Source: Plumapathes pennacea (Eukaryota > Cnidaria > Anthozoa > Antipatharia > Myriopathidae). From it: DNA of 64,000 nucleotides. A program made the translations under genes and the position numbers. The DNA is taken from the NCBI GenBank assembly GCA_964036295.1, contig OZ038470.1:14761578-14825577 (forward strand), written 5' to 3'. Positions 7,801 to 62,865 of this stretch are shown here, in pieces (position 1 is the first letter of the stretch; each line of letters opens with the position of its first letter). The notes beneath the pieces are model-generated. The model did no database searches, had not been told where the DNA came from, and saw only the letters and a list, made by a program, of their open reading frames with translations.

Positions 7801-9624
7801 AGATTTGATAAGAGTTTGTATGCGGCGCCATGTTGGTGGACCAAGGTTGTACACCAACATGGCGGCCAATAACTCGGAACACGAAATGAAGCTGATGTAC
7901 GACTCAGTTTGATTCTATGTTACTTCACATCCTTCGCAGTGCCAATTTTAAAATGTTTCGTGAAGGAAAACTTTATAATTCAGACACAAGCAACGATTTT
8001 AGTCGGCCACGAGCGTGTCACACGGTTTTGTTGTCACGGTATTCAAACGTCCATAGCTCCCGATAGATATTTTGTGTCGACCCAGAATTTTGCAGTAAGT
8101 ATTAAGGCATAACAGTCTTGAACATATTAGTGTATCGGACTTGTAGGGTGCGTTACTTCTGTGATGGCCTTCTTTTGACGTCACATGCAAACCAAGAATA
8201 CTTTGTACGCATCATGTCAGTGTTTAGGCACCCGAAGGCATGAAATCGTCTTGCGCTATCATTCATGCAGGTCATCAGTTATACAGGGTTTTACATAATG
8301 GTAAGCAGTCAATCCCGAAAAGGTTGTCCAGGTGATATATATATTTAGGCAAATAAATCTATCACGTGGCCACTGATATAACTACAAAGAAATACACTCT
8401 ATGAGCATTGTGTATATAATTTAAATGGTAAAACCAAGAGAAACACACTTACTGGTTGTGATGACTCTCAAGTGCTGTCATGAACTGATTCACGACCAGA
8501 TCTGCATCCGCTTTGGGTAGCACTTTATTTGGTAGCCACTCATGAGCCGAATGCAGGAAGCTTCGGCCCTTCTTTATCTCAGTAGTGTCTTTGGGATAAA
8601 CAGAACTGTGATGAAGAATCGCAATGTATATACCTGAGTTCTTTTTAACTTTTCCGTCTTTCACAACGTAGCTTGGTTCATAGGGAAACACTGGCAACAC
8701 ACCTTCCAAATGCTGTCCGTCGAGAGTGGACGTGTTATAATAATATTGAGAGGTTTCTTTCCACTGTTCGGAAGCTCGTTCATAGTGAGTGGGAATACGC
8801 AAATGTTCTCTGCCGTCTTTGCAGATACAAAATGTATTGCCGTCCAAACAAAAGGGACACAAGTACTGTCCTGTGATAATGCTAAATTCTTGTCCTTCCG
8901 GCGGTTTCCACAGCACGGAGACATGACCAACTCCTGCCCCATTCTTGTGCAAAGACTCGATGAAATACTTGGCGTTGCCCTTTAAATTAATTCCTCTTGA
9001 CATCTGTGTGGGATATTTCTTGTAGTCCCCAGGTGTTGTCCAAGCATAAGTATTGTTGTCGTGAACTTCGGCAATCAAGCGGACATTTCTCGGATCTTCG
9101 TTTGTGCTCAGCCATAATTCTGAAGCATCATCGGAAGTGATGGCAAAATAATACTCCCCTGAAAATTGTGGGTTCAAAAATCCAAACACTCGCTCACCTA
9201 TGTCGCTTTGCTGTGTTTCTGTTGTAAACGATGTTACGAAGGTAGTTCGATCGGGGAAACATGGAAACAATGACGACTGCTTCAAAGGACTCACATCGAA
9301 GCCAGTAATATGACTCCATACATGTAGATTCAGCCGACTTTCGCCCAGCTCGCAGATTCCTTTGGCGTTTGATGTTACGGCTGCATAGTCAGCGTTGTAA
9401 ACAACATCGTGTAGCTCATGTGCACGAGACGGAGTAGAAAACTTGTCACCGGCCACAGTGTTGTCAATGTACGTTTTTGTTTTTGCCGTTTTGCGGTTAT
9501 TTCTCCGGGAGAGGACGATCGTGGCAGCGACGAAAATAAGACACCAAGCAATGATGAGAAGAATTAGAGTTTTCCTCGTGTATCTGTGGAAGATACAGCG
9601 ATAAACGTTTGACTTTAAGTCCAT
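1843..9624 (-). CDS. B4GALNT3-like: beta-1,4-N-acetylgalactosaminyltransferase, B4GALNT3/4-like, complete (4 coding exons)
   Basis: Exons are 9624-8453, 3754-3238, 2763-2619 and 2003-1843 (stop TAG 1845-1843), giving 664 aa. All junctions are GT-AG and phases match (2, 0, 1). Residues 20-38 form a membrane anchor after a basic N-terminus, the type II Golgi layout. A PA14 domain covers about 95-255. The catalytic domain of the chondroitin N-acetylgalactosaminyltransferase family covers about 410-664, with the metal-binding DLH in FLFDLHI (548-550) and [11 protein letters not shown] (622-632), followed by FFHYYHSK. Family members transfer GalNAc from UDP-GalNAc to terminal GlcNAc (LacdiNAc) in the Golgi. 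Vertebrate B4GALNT3 is about 1000 aa; this protein lacks most of the linker between PA14 and the catalytic domain. ATG 9624 is preferred over the in-frame 9771 because it leaves a short cytosolic tail before the anchor. The 4.7-kb first intron hosts a THAP element. Confidence 0.93.
4252..4583. repeat. minisatellite block flanked by G20 and C20 homopolymers
   Basis: Twenty Gs at 4252-4271 and twenty Cs at 4560-4579 bracket about six degenerate units of roughly 30-36 bp containing GGTCTGAAATAGGGTCGAAA. Related blocks lie at 17771-18120 and 61250-61560, and fragments at 1555-1662 and 58804-58834. The block is in intron 1 of the GalNAc-transferase gene. The antisense ORFs across it are reading frames of the repeat, not genes. 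Confidence 0.85.
5116..5240 (+). repeat. fragment related to the palindrome arms
   Basis: The phrases TTGTTTTGTATGTGAAC, AATCAAAGCAAAACCTGA and ACTTCAAA-like text follow the same order as in the arms of the large palindrome (about 10858-10700 minus and 13376-13480 plus). It is a decayed extra copy of that dispersed sequence. Confidence 0.5.
5356..5430. repeat. short tandem repeat, unit about GAAACARC
   Basis: About nine copies of an 8-bp unit alternating GAAACAGC and GAAACAAC. It is intronic. Confidence 0.8.
5609..6628. mobile_element. 1.0-kb TIR element carrying a THAP-domain ORF
   Basis: A perfect 24-bp terminal inverted repeat is present at 5609-5632 and 6605-6628 (outer end GGTATTTCCGG, inner end GTAACGC). 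The left end has a 9-bp duplication of TATTTCCGG. Inside are the THAP ORF (6324-6001) and a second imperfect inverted pair (about 5651-5681 against 5948-6005). THAP domains are the DNA-binding module of P-element and some other transposases, so this could be an internally deleted transposon that kept only the binding domain. No catalytic domain is visible. Confidence 0.6.
6001..6324 (-). CDS. THAP zinc-finger protein, 107 aa, single ORF
   Basis: The start [10 protein letters not shown] and the later CSAH give the C2CH ligand set of a THAP finger: Cys5, Cys10, Cys62, His65. Trp42 and a Pro at 87 (TPYLPRLRR) sit at expected positions, though the family AVPTIF box is poorly kept. The protein ends about 20 residues after the domain, so it has DNA-binding capacity only. 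Upstream on the same strand (6360-6450) are a TGACGTCA site and a YY1-like AATATGGCGGC, so it may be transcribed. A weak donor (GC then GTAACA) overlaps the stop, so a spliced longer product is possible. It is not an exon of the surrounding GalNAc-transferase gene, because exons 1 and 2 of that gene join in phase without it. Confidence 0.7.
   Translation of the reverse strand: MPTRCVVGGCSNIPDVQKGIGLHRIPFAGDERPEARKRRKRWVDFVKSKRAKWEPTASSCVCSAHFKGEDFDRLFTVLPGQETPYLPRLRRDEIGIVSFPSVHVKHA
7411..7528. repeat. foldback repeat with TTTACACTGTACCGGATAGG ends
   Basis: The motif occurs at 7411-7434 (one change) and 7467-7491, and inverted at 7503-7527, making a hairpin around an 11-bp loop. A related single end lies at 5310-5333. 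It is a small non-autonomous TIR family. Confidence 0.7.
7622..8200. mobile_element. candidate non-autonomous TIR element
   Basis: TATTCTTGGTTTGCA at about 7624 recurs inverted (TGCAAACCAAGAATA) at about 8186-8200. Inside is a hairpin around CACCAACATGGCGGC (7829-7870). No ORF is supported. It lies in intron 1 of the GalNAc-transferase gene. Confidence 0.4.
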
Positions 9625-9803
9625 GATATGCCAGCGTGCGAGCTCACCGGGCCGAGTCTGACAAGTCTGAGTCTGAGTCAACAACCACGAAAAGTAGTCG
9701 AACGATTGGCCGTTTAAAACAATTAATTCATAAGCAGACTCCGGGGGCTCTGTCTGTCTGTCATGCAGCATGTGACACGACCTTTATTGCGTAACAGAAT
9801 ATT
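9625..9803 (-). promoter_or_regulatory. likely 5' UTR and promoter side of the GalNAc-transferase gene
   Basis: Only about 180 bp separate the chosen ATG (9624) from the outer edge of the large palindrome (9804). The transcription start therefore lies here or inside the left arm. No TATA box is convincing. Confidence 0.3.
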
Positions 9804-10025
9804 ATCCCCGAACGAAGTGAGGGAAATACTCAAGACGCTAATGCAGTAGTATTATCGCCTTATCGGAGACTCCAAGCCTGCCGCCATCTCGAAATCTAAT
9901 GTTCGTCTGTCAGTCTTGCGTGCGACCTCGTCCCCAGTTCCTATCGCGTCGCTGCAGAACCAATAACAAAGGCCGGATCGATCACGTGTGGCCCTGTAGT
10001 TTTACTCGCAGTATAAGAAATTAGA

Positions 10026-10495
10026 TTGAACGAAGCAACTACAGTATATCGTAGCTGTGTTCACGAAAATAGAAAACTTGAAACACAACAGTCTCGCGAA
10101 GCTCGTCTTCAAAAGAGAAGGGAACAGGCACGAGCAAGGCGGAATCGTGAAACGATTAAACAGCGCCAAGTTCGTCTCGACAAAAGACGGAACTATGACC
10201 GAAAAGAAAACAGCGCATGAATGCCGATCGAAAGCGACATGAAGAGAAGCGGGTAACACAGACAACTCCGCAAAGAGAACAGCGCTTGAAAGCGAATCGA
10301 GACCTTCAGGAGAAAGAGCGGGCCGAAGAGAAGACTCCGCAAAGACAACAGCGCATGAATGCCGACCAAAAGCGACATGAACAGAAGCGGGTAACACAGA
10401 AAACTCCGCAAAGGGAACAGCGCTTGAAAGCAAATCGGGAGCTTCAGACGCCGTTTTGTGTTAAACTCAGATACTTATTTAGAAAGGACAAGTAA
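10026..10495 (+). pseudogene. STPR-repeat (23-residue repeat) protein remnant
   Basis: Two frames, 10026-10220 and 10217-10495, encode basic repeats with an exact 23-residue period. Examples are units starting TPQREQRLKANRDLQ and TPQRQQRMNADQKRH, and an earlier one starting SREARLQKRREQARA. This is the score-and-three peptide repeat known from the DNA-binding domain of FMBP-1 and from N-termini of some transposon-encoded (for example Helitron) proteins. The frame changes at about 10200-10217, so the ORF is broken unless spliced. Nothing helicase-like follows. A mirror copy lies at 14060-13795. Confidence 0.6.
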
Positions 10496-10663
10496 AGGTT
10501 AGTCAGTGGAAATCGAACAATCACCGTGACAAATAAATTCTATCCCGTATAGCTTGTAGCTCGATCACTTCAAGAATGTACTAAAATCTGTATGCTGATC
10601 ATTTTCGCCAGTTTCGGCTACCGTATTCGCTCAGAGCAATCGGAACTTGGAGTCTTGAATAAT

Positions 10664-10858
10664 TTAGTCAGATGTCTTATTTTTCTGTAATCTGACATGC
10701 GGTGATTGCAGCGAGAATCGTTCACAAGCACTTAGACGTATTACTGGGTCTGAAGCCCGTGTATAATTTGAAGTAAACTGTTCAAGTTTTGCTTTGATTC
10801 TGGGAGAAATCTTGCTGTTTTGAGTGGGTTGACATACAAAACAATTCGAGCAATTCAA
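10664..10858 (-). pseudogene. small conserved ORF in left arm, unknown family
   Basis: It encodes a 64-residue peptide containing SPRIKAKLEQFTSNYTRA and SACERFSLQSPH. The mirror copy at 13368-13560 (plus) keeps the same words with few changes, and a decayed cousin lies at 5116-5240. It faces the STPR ORF tail to tail in both arms. Function unknown; it may be part of the same mobile element. Confidence 0.35.
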
Positions 10859-11290
10859 TTAAATATGCATGCCTGAGTCTGGAGCATGCAATCCAGAGTA
10901 AAAACAAATCGCACAGGAAGCCTATTTAATTGTACTGCCTATGAATTCAAAATTGGAAAATCAGTGTTCCTTTTTTCCCGTACTACGACGGCCGACCAAC
11001 TTCAAAATTTGAGTATTAAATTTTGAGAACGTGCTTGGAAGACTGTATGAATTAATTTGACGTGCCGACCGTGGGAAATACGTACTTCGTCACGCAATCG
11101 ATTCTTTTTTCAACGCAAAAGTATAACACACACCATTCTTTTTCTCCTTCCTTTGCGTGTAGCACTTGAGTTCGAAGAAAAGATTGAGTCAACATTTCGG
11201 TAAAACAAAGGCTACTCTTGTTGGGAGTACCAAAGTAAAAGTCCCATCAATGGCAGAGCGAGGGGGTATCTGCGATTATCGTATTTCTAG

Positions 11291-12959
11291 TAAGGAAATG
11301 TATGGGGAAATGTATGGGGAAAAGCAACGATGCGGATACATCGTAAGATTTTGAATGAATTACATCGCCAGAAATTTCAGACATCCGGTTGCGCCATCTC
11401 GGAAGAGGCATCAGGTTTCACGCTGACAGCCGCTCAAGAAATAACAAAGAAATGTATGGGATCTGATTTCGCTTAACTGAAGCGCGTTCGTAATAATGTC
11501 TGGGCAGCATTCGGAAGAGGAAAGCTTCCTAAACACAACAGTACAAAAAATATTTATCTCCGGTAAAATTCGATGTGTACTTTTTTGAATTTAAAATTTC
11601 GGCCGACGTAAGAAGGGATTGATAGCAGAATACGCTCAAAACCGGCTACTGTCACTTTTTAAGCTGCATTTAATACAAGAACCTTGGGTACAACGCAAAA
11701 TGTCTACCCCGTACCTGATTGTCGAAGGATTGAACATCTCCTGTGAAGCCTCAGTCAGTCCCCTGGAGCAAATTCGATGTGTACTTTTTGTGTTTGAATT
11801 TGCAGTTCACAGCCAGCCATGGCGAATACCTCCCGTGAAATACGCTGACTTCGGATGTTGATATTTTGGGCTGGGAAGCTCCAAATCGCATGAAAATTGC
11901 ACCAAACGAAAGCTAATTCAGCGGCACGTCTCCTAAACGTAGCAGTCTCTTTTTGAACCGGAGAAACCCATCCCTCCCCCACCCCACTGAGGCAAAGTAC
12001 GTAACAATGTTGAATGTATGAATGGCGCATGTTCATACCGCACGCCGCTGGGAAAGACCGGAAGCAATCGTGGACGCAAAATGTCCGAAATTTCTGGCGA
12101 TGAAAATAAAAGCTGGTGTAACTGTTATTTGTGGTCTCTTGAGTCCCTTGTGTTGATTTCAAGCTGCTACGGACACTATTAGTGACCGAAATCCTGCCGA
12201 GGTTTCTGCCCCCAATAAAAATGAGAAGGCTGGTACGGTTAAGAACGAATAAATACTACCAAAAGCCCTGCGATGCCGAAACACCCCCCCAAAAGAGAAA
12301 ACATCGGCGCGAATTTCTACCACTAATACTGGCCGCAGCGGCTCTAAATTAATACAAGGGACACAGGAGACAACTACTAACGGGTAGCGAGCGTTTAGTT
12401 TGAGTTTCATTATCAAATTCTATTATTTTCCGTGATCGGTAAAAGGCCCCGTACATTTTCTTATAATCTTGAGTTGCGCAACATTTCGTCACCGAGCTTG
12501 GGCCGCCTGTGATACGAGCAGTTGATCAATCGCTTTCTTCGGTTCACCTCCGCGAAGTCAACAATTTTCCACCACCGCCGACTCTGCCCTCACAGAAGCA
12601 AATTTAATAAATTTCCACTGGTTTGCCGTGGTGTGGACTCTTATTTACCACGATTTACGTCATCACATGGTCAAAATGTTGTGGACTCACGAGGCGCTTC
12701 GCCGAGTGAGTCGGCAACTAATTTTGACCATGTGATGACGTAAATCGTGGTAAATAAGGCCCGGTTCAGACGCCGCTCCTGACATGCGCCGAACCTAATG
12801 CTTGAATAGTACGGCAGAAGAGCGGCGTCTGAATCAATTAGGTTCGGCATGTTTGAATTAGGTACGGCAGCGGTATTAGGTTCGACTGACGCTGTCGCAT
12901 AATCCGACCTGGGAGCGACGTTGATTCAGACGCCTCTCTTCACATGTGCCGTACCTATA
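11291..12959. other. spacer of the palindrome
   Basis: No gene is supported. A short inverted match (CATCGCCAGAAATTTC at about 11366, reversed at about 12090) suggests the palindrome once ran further in and the right arm was split by insertions. AAATTCGATGTGTACTTTTT occurs twice in direct orientation (about 11566 and 11769). A foldback MITE sits at 12609-12758. Confidence 0.5.
12609..12758. mobile_element. foldback MITE, GGTTTGCCGTGGTGTGG family
   Basis: The element reads inward from AAATTTCCACTGGTTTGCCG to a centre near 12690 and back out through CATGTGATGACGTAAATCG. Other copies are at 14488-14772, about 14868-15020 and 43917-44232. No coding capacity. Confidence 0.8.
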
Positions 12960-13367
12960 CTAGAAATACGATAATCGCAGATACCCCCTCGCTCTGCCAT
13001 TGATGGGACTTTTACTTTGGTACTCCCAACAAGAGTAGCCTTTGTGTTACCGAAATGTTGACTCAATCTTCTCTTTGAAGTCAAGTGCTACACGCAAAGG
13101 AAGGAGAAAAAGAATGGTGTGTGTTATAAGAGTCGATTGCATGACGAAGTACGTATTTCCCACGGTCTGCACGTCAAATTAATTCATACAGTCTGCCAAG
13201 CACGTTCTCAAATTTAATATTCAAATTTTGAAGTTGGTCGGCCGTCGTAGTAAGAAAAAAAGGAACACTGATTTTCCAATTTTGAATTCATAGGCAGTAC
13301 AATTAAATAGGCTTCCTGTGCAGTTTTACTCTGGACTGCATGCACAAGACTCGGGCATACATGTTTA

Positions 13368-13560
13368 ATGAGCTCGAATTGTTTTGTGCGTGAACGCGCT
13401 CAAAACAACATGATTTCTCCCAGAATCAAAGCAAAACTTGAACGGTTTACTTCAAATTATACACGGGCTTCAGACCTAGTCATACTTCTAAGGGCTTGTG
13501 AACGATTCTCGCTGCAATCACCGCATGTCAAATTACGGTATTTGACAGTTTTAGTCTTGA
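13368..13560 (+). pseudogene. small conserved ORF in right arm, unknown family
   Basis: Mirror copy of the ORF at 10858-10664, sharing SPRIKAKLERFTSNYTRA and ACERFSLQSPH. Conservation of the peptide in both arms suggests past coding selection or a recent duplication. Confidence 0.35.
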
Positions 13561-13794
13561 AAGAAATAATAAGACATCTGACTGAATCATTCAAGACTCC
13601 AAGTTCCGATTGCTCTGAGCCAACACGGTAGCCGAAACTGGCGACAGAAGCGTATTAAAACAATACTTCGAGGGAAAATGATCAGCATACAGATTTTAAT
13701 ACATTCTTGAAGTGATCGAGTTACAAGATACGGGTAGAATATATTTGTCACGGTGATTGTTCGCTTTCCACTGACTAACCTTTGTTGCTTGTCC

Positions 13795-14060
13795 TTTCTG
13801 AATAAGGATCTGAGTTTAACACAAGACGGCGTCTGAAGCTCCCGATTTGCTTCCAAGCGCTTTTCCCTTTGCGGAGCCGTTTCTTCGGCACGCTTCCGTT
13901 CATAATGCTGTCGGTTATCAAATGTTTGTCGTCTTTTCTCTAGACGTATGCGCTGTTTGATTGTTTTACGATTTCGCCTTGCCCGTGCTAGTTCCCTTCC
14001 CTTTTGCAGACAAGCTTCGCGAGACCGTGCTGTGTCAAGTTTTCCAGTTTTCAAATTCAT
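13795..14060 (-). pseudogene. STPR-repeat protein remnant, mirror copy
   Basis: It encodes ARSREACLQKGRELARARR, then TAPQREKRLEANRELQTP and VKLRSLFRKDK, matching the left-arm ORF. It has lost about two 23-residue units relative to the left arm. The frame is open through the repeats, unlike the left copy. Confidence 0.55.
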
Positions 14061-14487
14061 TTTCGTGAACGCAGTTACGTACAGTTGTTGCTTCGTTCAA
14101 ACCTTTGTTTGACCTCGCTTTGACGCTAATCGATAATTATTATTACGTCATTGCCTTAGAGGTCGCCCTATGACAGACTGACAGACTGACTGACGAACAT
14201 TAGATTTCGAGATGGCGACTCGATTGGAGTCTCCACACAAAGCGAATTTGCTGCATTAGCGCCGTGATTATTACCCTCACTTCGCTTCGCTTCGCTCGGG
14301 GATCATGAATTATTTTAAATTATTTTGAATTAAAAACATGTATCCTTAAACATAAGCACTATTGTGTATTTGGTGCGGCAGGAAAAGTTCGCCGTTTGAA
14401 TCAACAGTCGCTCCTATGTCGAACCAGGGTCGAATCTATTACTATTAGGTTCGGCGCATGTCAGGAGCGGCGTCTGAACCGGGCCTA

Positions 14488-14772
14488 AGAGTCCACACCA
14501 CGGCAAACCAGTGGAAATTTGTTTTTTACCACAACATTTAGAAATATACAGGAAACTTTCGTTGTATTTCGCTGCAAAACGTGACATGCTGGCGTCAGCA
14601 TCATTGTCTGGACTCTTATTTACCACGGTAAATCGACCAATCAGAGAGCGAGAAACTAGTGTGTTGTGGTAAAAAACTTTTTTTTATTGACGAAGAAAAC
14701 TTTTTTACCACAACACACTAGTTTCTCGCTCTCTGATTGGTCGATTAACCGTGGTAAATAAGAGTCCAGACA
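14488..14772. mobile_element. nested foldback MITEs
   Basis: CCGTGGTAAATCGACCAATC followed by GAGAGCGAGAAACTAGTGTG (14617-14660) is mirrored at about 14713-14755, leaving a loop of about 40 bp. The left part is a copy of the GGTTTGCCGTGGTGTGG family. Confidence 0.75.
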
Positions 14773-14867
14773 ACGATGTGACGCCAGCTGACGCCAGCGT
14801 GTCACGTTTTGCAACGAAATACAGCGAAATTTTCTTGTATATTTCTAAATAGTGTGGTAAAAAACAA

Positions 14868-15020
14868 ATTTCCACTGGTTTGCCGTGGTGTGGACTCTTA
14901 TTTACCACGATTTACGTCATCACATGGTCAAAATGTTGTGGACTCACGAGGCGCTTCGCCGAGTGAGTTCACAACAAATTTTGACCTTGACCTCCACACC
15001 ACGGCAAACCAGTGGAAATT
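14868..15020. mobile_element. foldback MITE, GGTTTGCCGTGGTGTGG family
   Basis: Begins AAATTTCCACTGGTTTGCCG and ends with the inverse at about 15000-15020. The centre contains GAGGCGCTTCGCCGAGTGAG, as in the 12609 copy. Confidence 0.75.
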
Positions 15021-24000: not shown

Positions 24001-27000
24001 TGATTTTAATTCTTAAAAATCCGCTATATTGGGAATAGTATCATGTGGCAATTAGTTGGGATGTGCAGGCGCTTAACAGTTGCCAGATTGGAGATGTGGT
24101 CCAACCGCTATTTGTATTTATATTCTTCGTGCCAATTATATATTGTCAAGGTGAGTGACCTGAGTTGGGTGGTAAAGCGATTACGCGACAAAATAAAGAT
24201 ACAAATGAAGAATTAAAGAAGAAAGCGTGTGTGGGTCAGAAAGATATAAATTTATACGAAACAACAAAAGGAGAAAAAGCTCGACAAAAGTTTCTTCGTG
24301 ACGCCTACGCAACGGAGGCCGGAAATCCTTAATGACATTATGCATCCGTAAATTGTTACGGGAGCTTTTTAAACCGATATCTTGAGTCCATTTCTCGCAA
24401 ATTCTTTCACGTACGGTGAGATTGCAAAGTGGACACACACACACACACACAAAGATTCTCAAACGATGCTGCCTGTTCGAAAATTAATGATTTATTCCTG
24501 AGACAGAACATTTGAAGAAAGCTCCTTCTTGCGCTTTTTATCATATTCACAAGTCATTATCGGAAGGAAGCGAAAATCGGTAACCACTGGTATTGCCTAG
24601 TGGCAATTTCGAACACTAGTGTTCGATATGACGAGCGTTCCGCTAAAAAACGATGGAAGACGGTGGGCGCAAAGGGGAGCGAATAAAAAGTGGGGAAATG
24701 TTAATGGAACTCTTCACTGCCAAAGGCAAATTTGAGTAAAACCTCAATTCTTGTCAAAAAGTTGAACATTCGAAGGACAACTTCTAACAGCAACAACTTC
24801 CAACTCCTAAACTACAGTTAAATGAAACCTATAGGTTTTGAACATTCGAAGGACAGCTCTCGATGAGCACAATCCAATTGCAGTGTTCATTTCCAACTCT
24901 TGAAATGCAGTTAAATGAAATCAAAAGTGTGACCACACAAACTAAAGCTCTCGATGGGTACATTCTAACAGCAGTGTTCACTTCCAACTCCTAAACTACA
25001 CTTAAATGAAACTTAAAGGTGTGAACATTCGAAGGACAGCTCTCGATGAGTACATTCTAACAGCAGTGTTCACTTCCAAATCTTGAAATGCAGTTAAGTG
25101 AAACCTAAAAATGTTACAACACAAACGAAAGCTCTCGATGAGTACATTCTAACAGCAGTCAGTGTTCATTTCCAACTCCTAAACAGTAGTTAAATAAAAC
25201 CCAAAAGTGTGACCTCTTAAACGAAGGCTCTCAATGGGCACAATCTAATAGCAGTGTTCACTTCCAATTCCTAAACTGCAGTTAAATGAAACTTAAAGGT
25301 GTTGTTCCTTTTGGTTTGACTCGCCCGTCAAAGAGTTCATTTTAATCTTGAGCGTATATATTTTTTGCATTTAAAAGTTACAGTTTAGACAGGAAAAATG
25401 CGGTAAACTGGACAATAGCGTGAGTCAACAGAAGGAAAAATGTAATCTTTTACAACAATCACGACAGACCTTCCTGCTGTGTTGATAATGTGGTTGATAG
25501 TTATATTCGCGTAGACAGCAGTCGAAACCCCCAGATTCATTTCATTCCTTTGGGAATATGCTTTTCGAGCAAGTTAGTACAACACAGTTAGACATCATAT
25601 CTAAGTTTCAATTGTTTCAAACATCAACATTGTACAAAGCTTTCAACATATCAATCCTAAAACTATAGCAGCCATCCTTGGTGTTTTACAACTTCGTCCT
25701 AAGTACAACCTTGCCTTATCAAGAAAATCAATTTCTGCGACCCACGGTGAGCTCGGTACAGACGTGTCGCACAGGACTTTTCACTCTTACAGGAAGAGGC
25801 AGATGAAAAACACGTGCAGTAGATAAGTTTTAAAGTTACAAATGCTACTCAAGAAGAACATCGACGATGAAGTATGGTGAGTTAGGTCGCGAAATTTGTG
25901 ATTGAATCTGTAAATTGCATTACTTTCGTGCAACTGTTACATTGTATTATCTCATCGTTTCCGCATTTCAGAAGATATCACTAGGCTGTTGAAATACCGA
26001 TAAGAAAGGTGTCCAAATATTACTCCTGTTGGAGGTCACTGCATCCTAAACCCATAGTAGTAAACTTTTAGCCCGAGCTTGACCTTCCATAGCGAGCAAT
26101 GAAATGTGTTTAGGGAGTCTGACTTCTTTCACATCGTTTTGCTTTTTGGCTTTGTCCGCTAAGAGTAGTTGCTTCGCTTACATTCAGACTCTCCAGCGGA
26201 CAGAATGTCCATCTCCAAGATGCAGACATAAACCAAATACAAAACAAATCCACAGCAATATAAGGAAAAAGAAAGTCAAGGTCTTAAAACATTACCAAAA
26301 GTAACATACAGTATTTCATTTTCAGTCCGAAATATATATTGACAGAGATTCTAAATTATTTAACTTATGACGGAAAGACAGATACAAAGCAATCTCCCAG
26401 ATTTAGACAGTAACTACTAAACCAATAATTTGAGCAAATTACGACAGACAAATGCTGCAGGAATATTACAAATATCTCTCCAAGAGTCGTGCTTACACAC
26501 TGCTTGAGTAAACGACGAATCCGATCGGATGTCGTTGTGTGTTAAAATGTCTGGTTTGGTTTCGCATTTACGCTAAAAGAAAATTTAGAGCCTGCTTTAG
26601 AAGATGTTTGCAAGGCTGGACAAACGAAAGAGAATGATTTTAACAAAGAACAACTCCGTTGTGTGTTGAATAATGGCTACCCTTCTTGTCAAAGCGGCTG
26701 TAAATGATCCTTGGTACATAAGAAAGTGGCTACTTTTGATTTAGTACTGTACAGTAGGTCTCCTTACCTGGATAGCAAAGACTTGCTGAATCGCTAGACC
26801 TTCGCTTTTTGCCTCCGGCTCTGTCCATTGTCGGTGGTGTAAGGCTACGTGGTCTTTTTCCCCCTGCAGAGTAGAAAGCACTCTCATCGGCGGAGATCTC
26901 TGAGCACTCCGAGGAGGAGGAGTTTGTATCGCGTTGGTCAATACCGTTGCTCGCAGCAAGCGGACGGCGGTCAAGAGAACGCTTAATATCAGAAGACGAG

Positions 27001-59119: not shown

Positions 59120-59856
59120 AACGGGAAGCGAATTCCCACGTAAGGATGGTTACCCCCTCCCGCAGTCTGATTATATTATGTCAGCGGTCGCCCCACTGTA
59201 TTAATAACTAACCAAACGTGAAGCAGCGGTAATTTTCGCGTTGTTATGGTTTCTTTCTAGTTGCCGTTTTCTGTGTTCGTGTTAGGTAGCGTCGCTCCAA
59301 AATGTAAATAAAGGATGATTTGTGAATGACTCGTTACCAGCTTCCCGCAGAGGTTCACCTCAGACCCCTCGGGGGAATGGGGACCAGCAATCTTAAGCCC
59401 CTTGGGGGAATGGGGACCAGCAACCTCAGACCCTTGGGGGAATGGGGACCAGCAACCTCAGACCCTTGGGGGAATGGGGACCAGCAACCTCAGAACTGTC
59501 AACATGTTCTCGAGGCAAACATTAACGGATATAGTGAAATACTATCTGACAATGGCATTCACTGATATAGAGAAAATTAATCCCATTCCGCGCGTAACCT
59601 GGTAACTACCCTCCAGCAAAGAAAATGGCGTCTACAACGGGAAGCGAATTGCGTAAGGATGGTTACCCCCTCCCGCAGTCTGATTATATTATGTCAGCGG
59701 TCGCCCAACTGTATTAATAACGAACCAACCTTGAAGCAGCGGTAATTTTCGCGCTGTTGTGGTTTCTTTCTATTTGCCATTTTCTGTGTTCGTGTTAGGT
59801 AGCATTGCTCCAAAATGTAAATAAAAGAGGATGATCTGTGAATGACTCGTTACCAG
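59120..59856. repeat. composite repeat: two 200-bp direct copies around a minisatellite
   Basis: A segment from GGGAAGCGAATT through GTAAGGATGGTTACCCC to GAATGACTCGTTACCAG occurs at 59120-59341 and 59636-59856. Between them lie four units of about 33 bp (GGGGAATGGGGACCAGCAAC). An inverted copy is at 62385-62865. Small ORFs here are repeat frames. Confidence 0.85.
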
Positions 59857-62384: not shown

Positions 62385-62865
62385 GAACCCTGCGGGAGGG
62401 GGTAGCCATCCTTACGCAATTCACTTCCCGGAGGGTAGTTACCAGGTTACGCGCGGAATGGGACTAATTTTCTCTATATCAGCGAATGCTATTTTGCATT
62501 GTCAGATAGTATTTCATATCCGTTAATGTTTGCCTCGAGAACATGTTGACAGTTCTGAGGTTGCTGGTCCCCATTCCCCCAAGGGTCCAACCTCGTTCCC
62601 AGGGCCATCCAATGGTCGGGAGCTTCTGCCGCGGATGGCCCTGGGAACGAGGTTGCCAAGGGTCTGAAGTTACTGGTCCCCATTCTCCCAAGGAGCCCGA
62701 GGTTGCTGGTCCCCATTCCCCCAAGGGTCTGAGGTTGCTGGCCCCCATTCCCCCAAGGGGCTAAGGTTGCTGGTCCCCATTCCCCGAGGGGTCTGAGGTG
62801 AACCGCTGCAGGAAGCTGGTAACGAGTCATTCACAAATCATCCTTTTTTTATTTACATTTTGGCA
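62385..62865. repeat. inverted copy of the 59120-59856 composite repeat
   Basis: On the minus strand it follows 59290-59690 closely: GAATGACTCGTTACCAGCTT, about five minisatellite units, GAACATGTTGACAG, then TAACCTGGTAACTACCCTCC. It carries a nested hairpin at 62588-62655. Confidence 0.85.
62588..62655. mobile_element. 68-bp hairpin insertion with 9-bp target duplication
   Basis: Perfect 23-bp stems (62588-62610 and 62633-62655, core CTCGTTCCCAGGGCCATCC) close a 22-nt loop. CCAAGGGTC stands on both sides (62579-62587 and 62656-62664). The uninterrupted units of the same array show only one copy, so the insertion duplicated the target. Confidence 0.8.

Follow-up and report, generated by a model that had tools for sequence, protein, structure and literature searches.

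The large imperfect palindrome in this DNA very probably consists of two independent insertions, in opposite orientation and 1,669 bp apart, of one high-copy, non-autonomous Helitron-type family. We read the arms as separate insertions because their ends are precise and asymmetric, single units are dispersed through the genome, both arms lie between an A and a T without a duplicated target, they belong to different subfamilies, and paralogous empty sites exist. A striking palindrome of kilobase size can, in other words, be two ordinary transposon insertions. Here, we describe the two arms within the window (the whole stretch of 64,000 nucleotides that was analysed), the dispersal and subfamilies of the element, the nested repeats around it, and the reading frames that it carries.

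The presence of an inverted repeat in the window is confirmed by self-comparison, which returns, for example, a match of 171 nt at 98% identity with 1,665 nt between its two halves. The left arm, X1 (9805-11290, plus strand), is a full-length Helitron-type copy of 1,486 bp belonging to subfamily 1, with TCCCCGAACGAAG at its 5′ end and CTAG at its 3′ end. The right arm, X2 (12960-14302, minus strand), is a full-length Helitron-type copy of 1,343 bp belonging to subfamily 2, with TCCCCGAGCGAAGCGAAG at its 5′ end and again CTAG at its 3′ end. The arms of 1.49 and 1.34 kb and the 1.67-kb spacer reported by the first-pass annotation are real, have approximately the lengths given there, and lie far beyond chance. 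Its notion of a single large palindrome is replaced here by two independent insertions that do not form one structure. Closest to our reading is its suggestion of two head-to-head copies of an undescribed element: two copies are indeed present, but judged by Helitron 3′ ends they lie tail-to-tail, and the element is undescribed only insofar as no family name can be assigned, the kind of element being known.

Both arms start with TCCCCGA and end with GATTATCGTATTTCTAG. Their 3′ termini (11265-11290 on the plus strand in X1, 12960-12985 on the minus strand in X2) are identical in sequence, containing CGATTATCG and the CTAG end. X1 is flanked by ATTA and TAAG and X2, on its own strand, by CATGA and TATAG, so that each copy is inserted between an A and a T, with no duplication of the target. 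Aligned end to end, the arms agree at 1,095 of 1,238 ungapped columns (88.4%), and the difference between them largely consists of indels, including approximately two STPR units that are absent from the right arm.

Searching the genome (290 Mb in 24 contigs) for single-arm copies and exact ends, as the first-pass annotation had suggested, reveals single arms dispersed across the genome, with precise, asymmetric ends (TC...CTAG). For the left arm (query 9812-11291), the best 40 of 4,382 first-look candidates were scored, the window's own place included, and 39 of these 40 match the whole query at 95-100% identity; for the right arm, 40 candidates of 4,320 were scored, again with its own place included (both genome-wide candidate counts are lower bounds). 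The exact 27-bp 3′ end (11265-11291, including the flanking T) has 1,324 matches in the genome, which are split 628 to 696 between the strands, while its reversed control has none.

Ends and flanks were inspected at 60 loci, 30 per arm query and including the window's own two copies. Because TCCCC and CTAG form part of the motifs by which loci were recognised, the terminal counts are partly given by construction. TCCCC, a motif that itself includes TC, is found at the expected 5′ place in 58 of the 60 loci. All 58 loci with a called 3′ end (57 with CTAG and one with TTAG; L040 and L056 uncalled) have a T immediately after the element, and on the 5′ side TC is preceded by A in 40 of 58 called loci, by G in 13 and by T in 5 (L051 and L056 uncalled). 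Only a weak hairpin is predicted at the 3′ end (-4.4 kcal/mol; z -0.80; 41 of 200 shuffles fold as well). Of its pieces, GCAGA/TCTGC is kept in 47 of 60 members and the 9-nt CGATTATCG in 58 of 60. The variable base before TC and the weak hairpin would both suit a rolling-circle element outside the canonical Helitrons, either Helentron-like or of a lineage of its own, whose 5′ target is relaxed. We consider such an assignment improbable, as the CTAG end followed by T in all but one of the called loci fits the Helitron pattern CTRR|T.

The two arms represent different subfamilies. Using both end motifs, a full-length member was obtained from 64 of 70 loci (not from L040, L051, L056, L062, L066 and L070), and 60 members were compared after repeats of the same place (L061, L063, L064 and L065) had been dropped. 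Mean identity within a type is 98.9% for 30 X1-type members, 97.5% for 27 X2-type members and 99.6% for three members of a third type, values that are biased upwards by sampling the best matches to each query. Between types, it is 87.2% for X1-type against X2-type and 96.3% for X2-type against the third type. Measured against the majority of the type to which each belongs, X1 has 98.9% identity and X2 98.6%. Because identity to the own type is far higher than the mutual identity of the arms, we infer that X1 and X2 stem from different source lineages and that neither was copied from the other. The within-type identities (97.5-99.6%) point to recent activity of the family. Members of the third subfamily (L067, L068 and L069) share 99.5-99.7% identity, which suggests a very recent spread.

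This subfamily assignment bears directly on a local inverted duplication of one arm followed by divergence, one of the options listed by the first-pass annotation. Such an event would explain why the arms share their content in mirror order. However, each arm is far closer to its own type's majority than to the other arm, the boundaries of X2 coincide exactly with an empty site in a MITE (described below), and single-arm copies occur elsewhere, leaving a duplication of this kind with next to no probability.

On its right side, the palindrome is part of a nested series of elements. X2 splits a MITE (12758-14485) with a 42-bp TIR, GGCCCGGTTCAGACGCC..., and GGCCCGG...CCGGGCC ends, which is bordered by TAA at 12755-12757 and 14486-14488 and measures 385 bp without X2. 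We take this host element to be a Harbinger-like MITE, putatively of the PIF/Harbinger type, which it resembles in its 42-bp GGCCCGG TIR and TAA duplication. The MITE in turn splits an older inverted-repeat element (12606-14523), with ends AATAAATTTCCACTGG and CCAGTGGAAATTTGTT, which is present at L054 in uninterrupted form, without the MITE and X2 and with a single TAA. The window also contains a near-perfect compact palindrome at 14486-14900 (arms 14486-14599/14787-14900 at 94% and 14599-14684/14693-14778 at 95%), which is part of a dispersed inverted-repeat element with related sequence in L054.

MITEs that lack X2 provide its empty site. The right flank of X2 (184 bp) recurs at 99-100% identity in 39 other scored places, and where a partner end is listed (34 of the 39), the total span is 369-439 bp (mostly 389), compared with 1,730 bp in the window. 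Five MITE copies were read at the junction, four of which (L072-L075) were picked for matching as far as the junction. L071 is a MITE without X2 that agrees with the joined window flanks at 394 of 407 aligned bases, unrelated outer flanks included, and has two differences in the target. L072, L073 and L074 carry the X2 target ACCTATATCATGAATT, and compared with them X2 has no target-site duplication; relative to the joined flanks left of the junction, L073 has one substitution and L074 two, and L072 differs by three. In L075, one base is missing beside the X2 junction. Nested empty sites fix both the element ends and the order of insertion, and on the right side this order runs from the older inverted-repeat element to the GGCCCGG MITE (with its TAA duplication) and then to X2.

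The spacer contains repeats of its own. A dispersed repeat at 11361-12104, with approximate ends CATCGCCAGAAAT and ATTTCTGGCGATG, is itself inserted in an older repeat; it has matches in L029, L048, L055 and L057, and its empty site is found in L023. The copy in L055 carries a further member of the Helitron-type family at the equivalent of window position 11896, making this position in the window the empty site of that insertion, which lacks a target-site duplication.

These nested sites are hard to reconcile with a foldback or long-TIR transposon, 4.5 kb long and with arms of 1.4 kb, that moves as a whole, another option of the first-pass annotation. Long inverted arms of similar lengths would be expected of such an element, and a second, tail-to-tail family copy does occur in the flank of one other locus, L043. 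Yet the spacer contains other repeats with an empty site of their own, X2 sits in a MITE that also exists without X2, single-arm copies are spread genome-wide, and the arms belong to different subfamilies. When 1.5-kb flanks of the 60 loci were inspected (locus orientation taken from BLAST), a second family match of at least 100 bp was found in six loci and none in the other 54, a count that is not decisive alone, since these flanks are too short for a partner at 1,669 bp. Within the six, four neighbours have the same orientation, L045 is inverted the other way, and only in L043 (1502-4218) do two family copies again lie tail-to-tail, separated by approximately 250 bp instead of 1,669. We therefore give the foldback transposon a negligible chance. 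Inverted repeats are also a recognised type of assembly error, but an assembly fold-back should leave arms that are almost the same and would not create a precise empty site, and with 88.4% identity and a clean junction it is hardly credible. The single-arm copies, the subfamily assignment and the empty sites led us to reject the foldback, the local inverted duplication and the assembly fold alike.

With the exact 3′ ends of both strands placed at random, the genome would be expected to contain 2.5 tail-to-tail pairs no more than 1,670 bp apart. In addition, family 3′ ends are mildly clustered on contig C1, where the first 100 listed ends include 3 gaps of at most 2 kb (1.2 expected) and 24 of at most 25 kb (13.9 expected). 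The same contig has two family 3′ ends at 14701472 and 14702823, in the same orientation and 1,351 bp apart, as expected for a direct tandem of two copies. Contig C10 carries a head-to-head pair at 9,711,408-9,714,673. None of the neighbour pairs found (in the flanks of the 60 loci and on C10) repeats the arrangement of the window, and the occurrence of neighbours in both orientations is compatible with random plus clustered insertion. Close neighbours have been reported for Helitrons of bat and maize, according to excerpts of PMC4067079.

Both arms carry reading frames, described in the first-pass annotation as mirror-image, convergent remnants with exact 23-residue STPR repeats. X1 contains 69-bp (23-codon) STPR-type repeats at 10199-10447 on the plus strand (period 69, 3.6 copies). 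In X2, an STPR-type frame of 157 codons (13587-14060, minus strand) has no Pfam family above cut-off and includes only about one repeat unit, and the SPRIKAKLE frame of 87 codons (13368-13631, plus strand), antisense to the element, has no Pfam match at E≤1. The antisense position of SPRIKAKLE relative to STPR is upheld in the right arm and in other copies; on the left, the STPR frame falls into two separate parts, and the right arm is short of approximately two units. The 23-codon period is genuine in the left arm and the exactness is not, its units being 69% and 91% identical to the reference unit.

Across the family, the frames are variably preserved. An STPR frame of at least 118 codons is present in 24 of 27 X2-type members, while in the X1-type it is broken in two in 29 of 30 members and reduced to one short piece in L025. 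A SPRIKAKLE frame of at least 60 codons is missing in 3 of 30 X1-type and 6 of 27 X2-type members, and all three members of the third type have neither frame at this length. Counting differences from the majority, the dN/dS-like ratio is 0.80 for the X2-type (52 synonymous, 105 non-synonymous and 2 stop) and 1.99 for the X1-type (11 synonymous, 59 non-synonymous and 2 stop). Purifying selection on the STPR frames is not clear from these ratios, although the X2-type may be under weak constraint. In the PDB, no match to the X2 STPR frame was found at E≤1. The STPR frame also resembles Viral_Rep below the cut-off (14.7 bits, with 26 required; E 0.038), a hit that we set aside as coincidental similarity of a basic stretch.

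Both frames look like passenger sequence inside the element, broken in many copies. One could speculate that the STPR repeats go back to, or still code for, a DNA-binding component of this Helitron lineage with a role in recognising the single-stranded ends of its elements, and that X2-type copies might supply this component in trans; we hold this to be highly improbable. In titles and abstract openings of the literature, we found no work that combines Helitrons with STPR repeats, and no description of the family.

X1 lies beside the start of a host gene. This reading frame (8449-9771, minus strand) contains a PA14 domain (E 1.7e-05; 25.1 bits, where the cut-off is 24). The distance of 180 bp between the left arm and an ATG, given in the first-pass annotation, is correct for the ATG at 9624. 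X1 also lies upstream of the first ATG in frame (9771), at a distance of only 33 bp. From this position, a regulatory effect of X1 on the PA14-domain gene is conceivable. Elsewhere in the window, a tandem repeat with a period of 92/188 bp occupies 24796-25302, and two 32-bp tandem arrays (59357-59494 and 62656-62799), approximately 3 kb apart, have units that look reverse-complementary.

By analogy with known Helitrons, the family would be mobilised in trans by the RepHel protein (rolling-circle nickase and helicase) of a putative autonomous relative, and transposition would presumably begin with the TC end and stop once the CTAG end is reached. Its putative reading frames invite comparison with STPR proteins such as FMBP-1 (PMC4821344), the likeness being the basic 23-residue repeats. 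With Helentrons and DINE-1 elements, as portrayed in excerpts of PMC4067079, the family shares the rolling-circle type, the non-autonomous nature and tandem repeats inside some copies; those elements are described with subterminal inverted repeats and a T-rich target preference, whereas the family ends in CTAG|T. Canonical Helitrons, in the parts of PMC4067079 and PMC3789558 that treat them, start with TC and end with CTRR, cause no target duplication and have a palindrome of 16-20 nt approximately 11 bp from the 3′ end, and the former source states that they always insert between A and T. The family departs from them in the base before TC, which is not always A, in its weak 3′ hairpin and in its STPR-type repeat frames. 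It resembles canonical non-autonomous Helitrons in its 5′ TC, its 3′ CTRR (here CTAG), the lack of a target duplication, the T after the 3′ end, its high copy number and the close neighbourhood of some of its copies.
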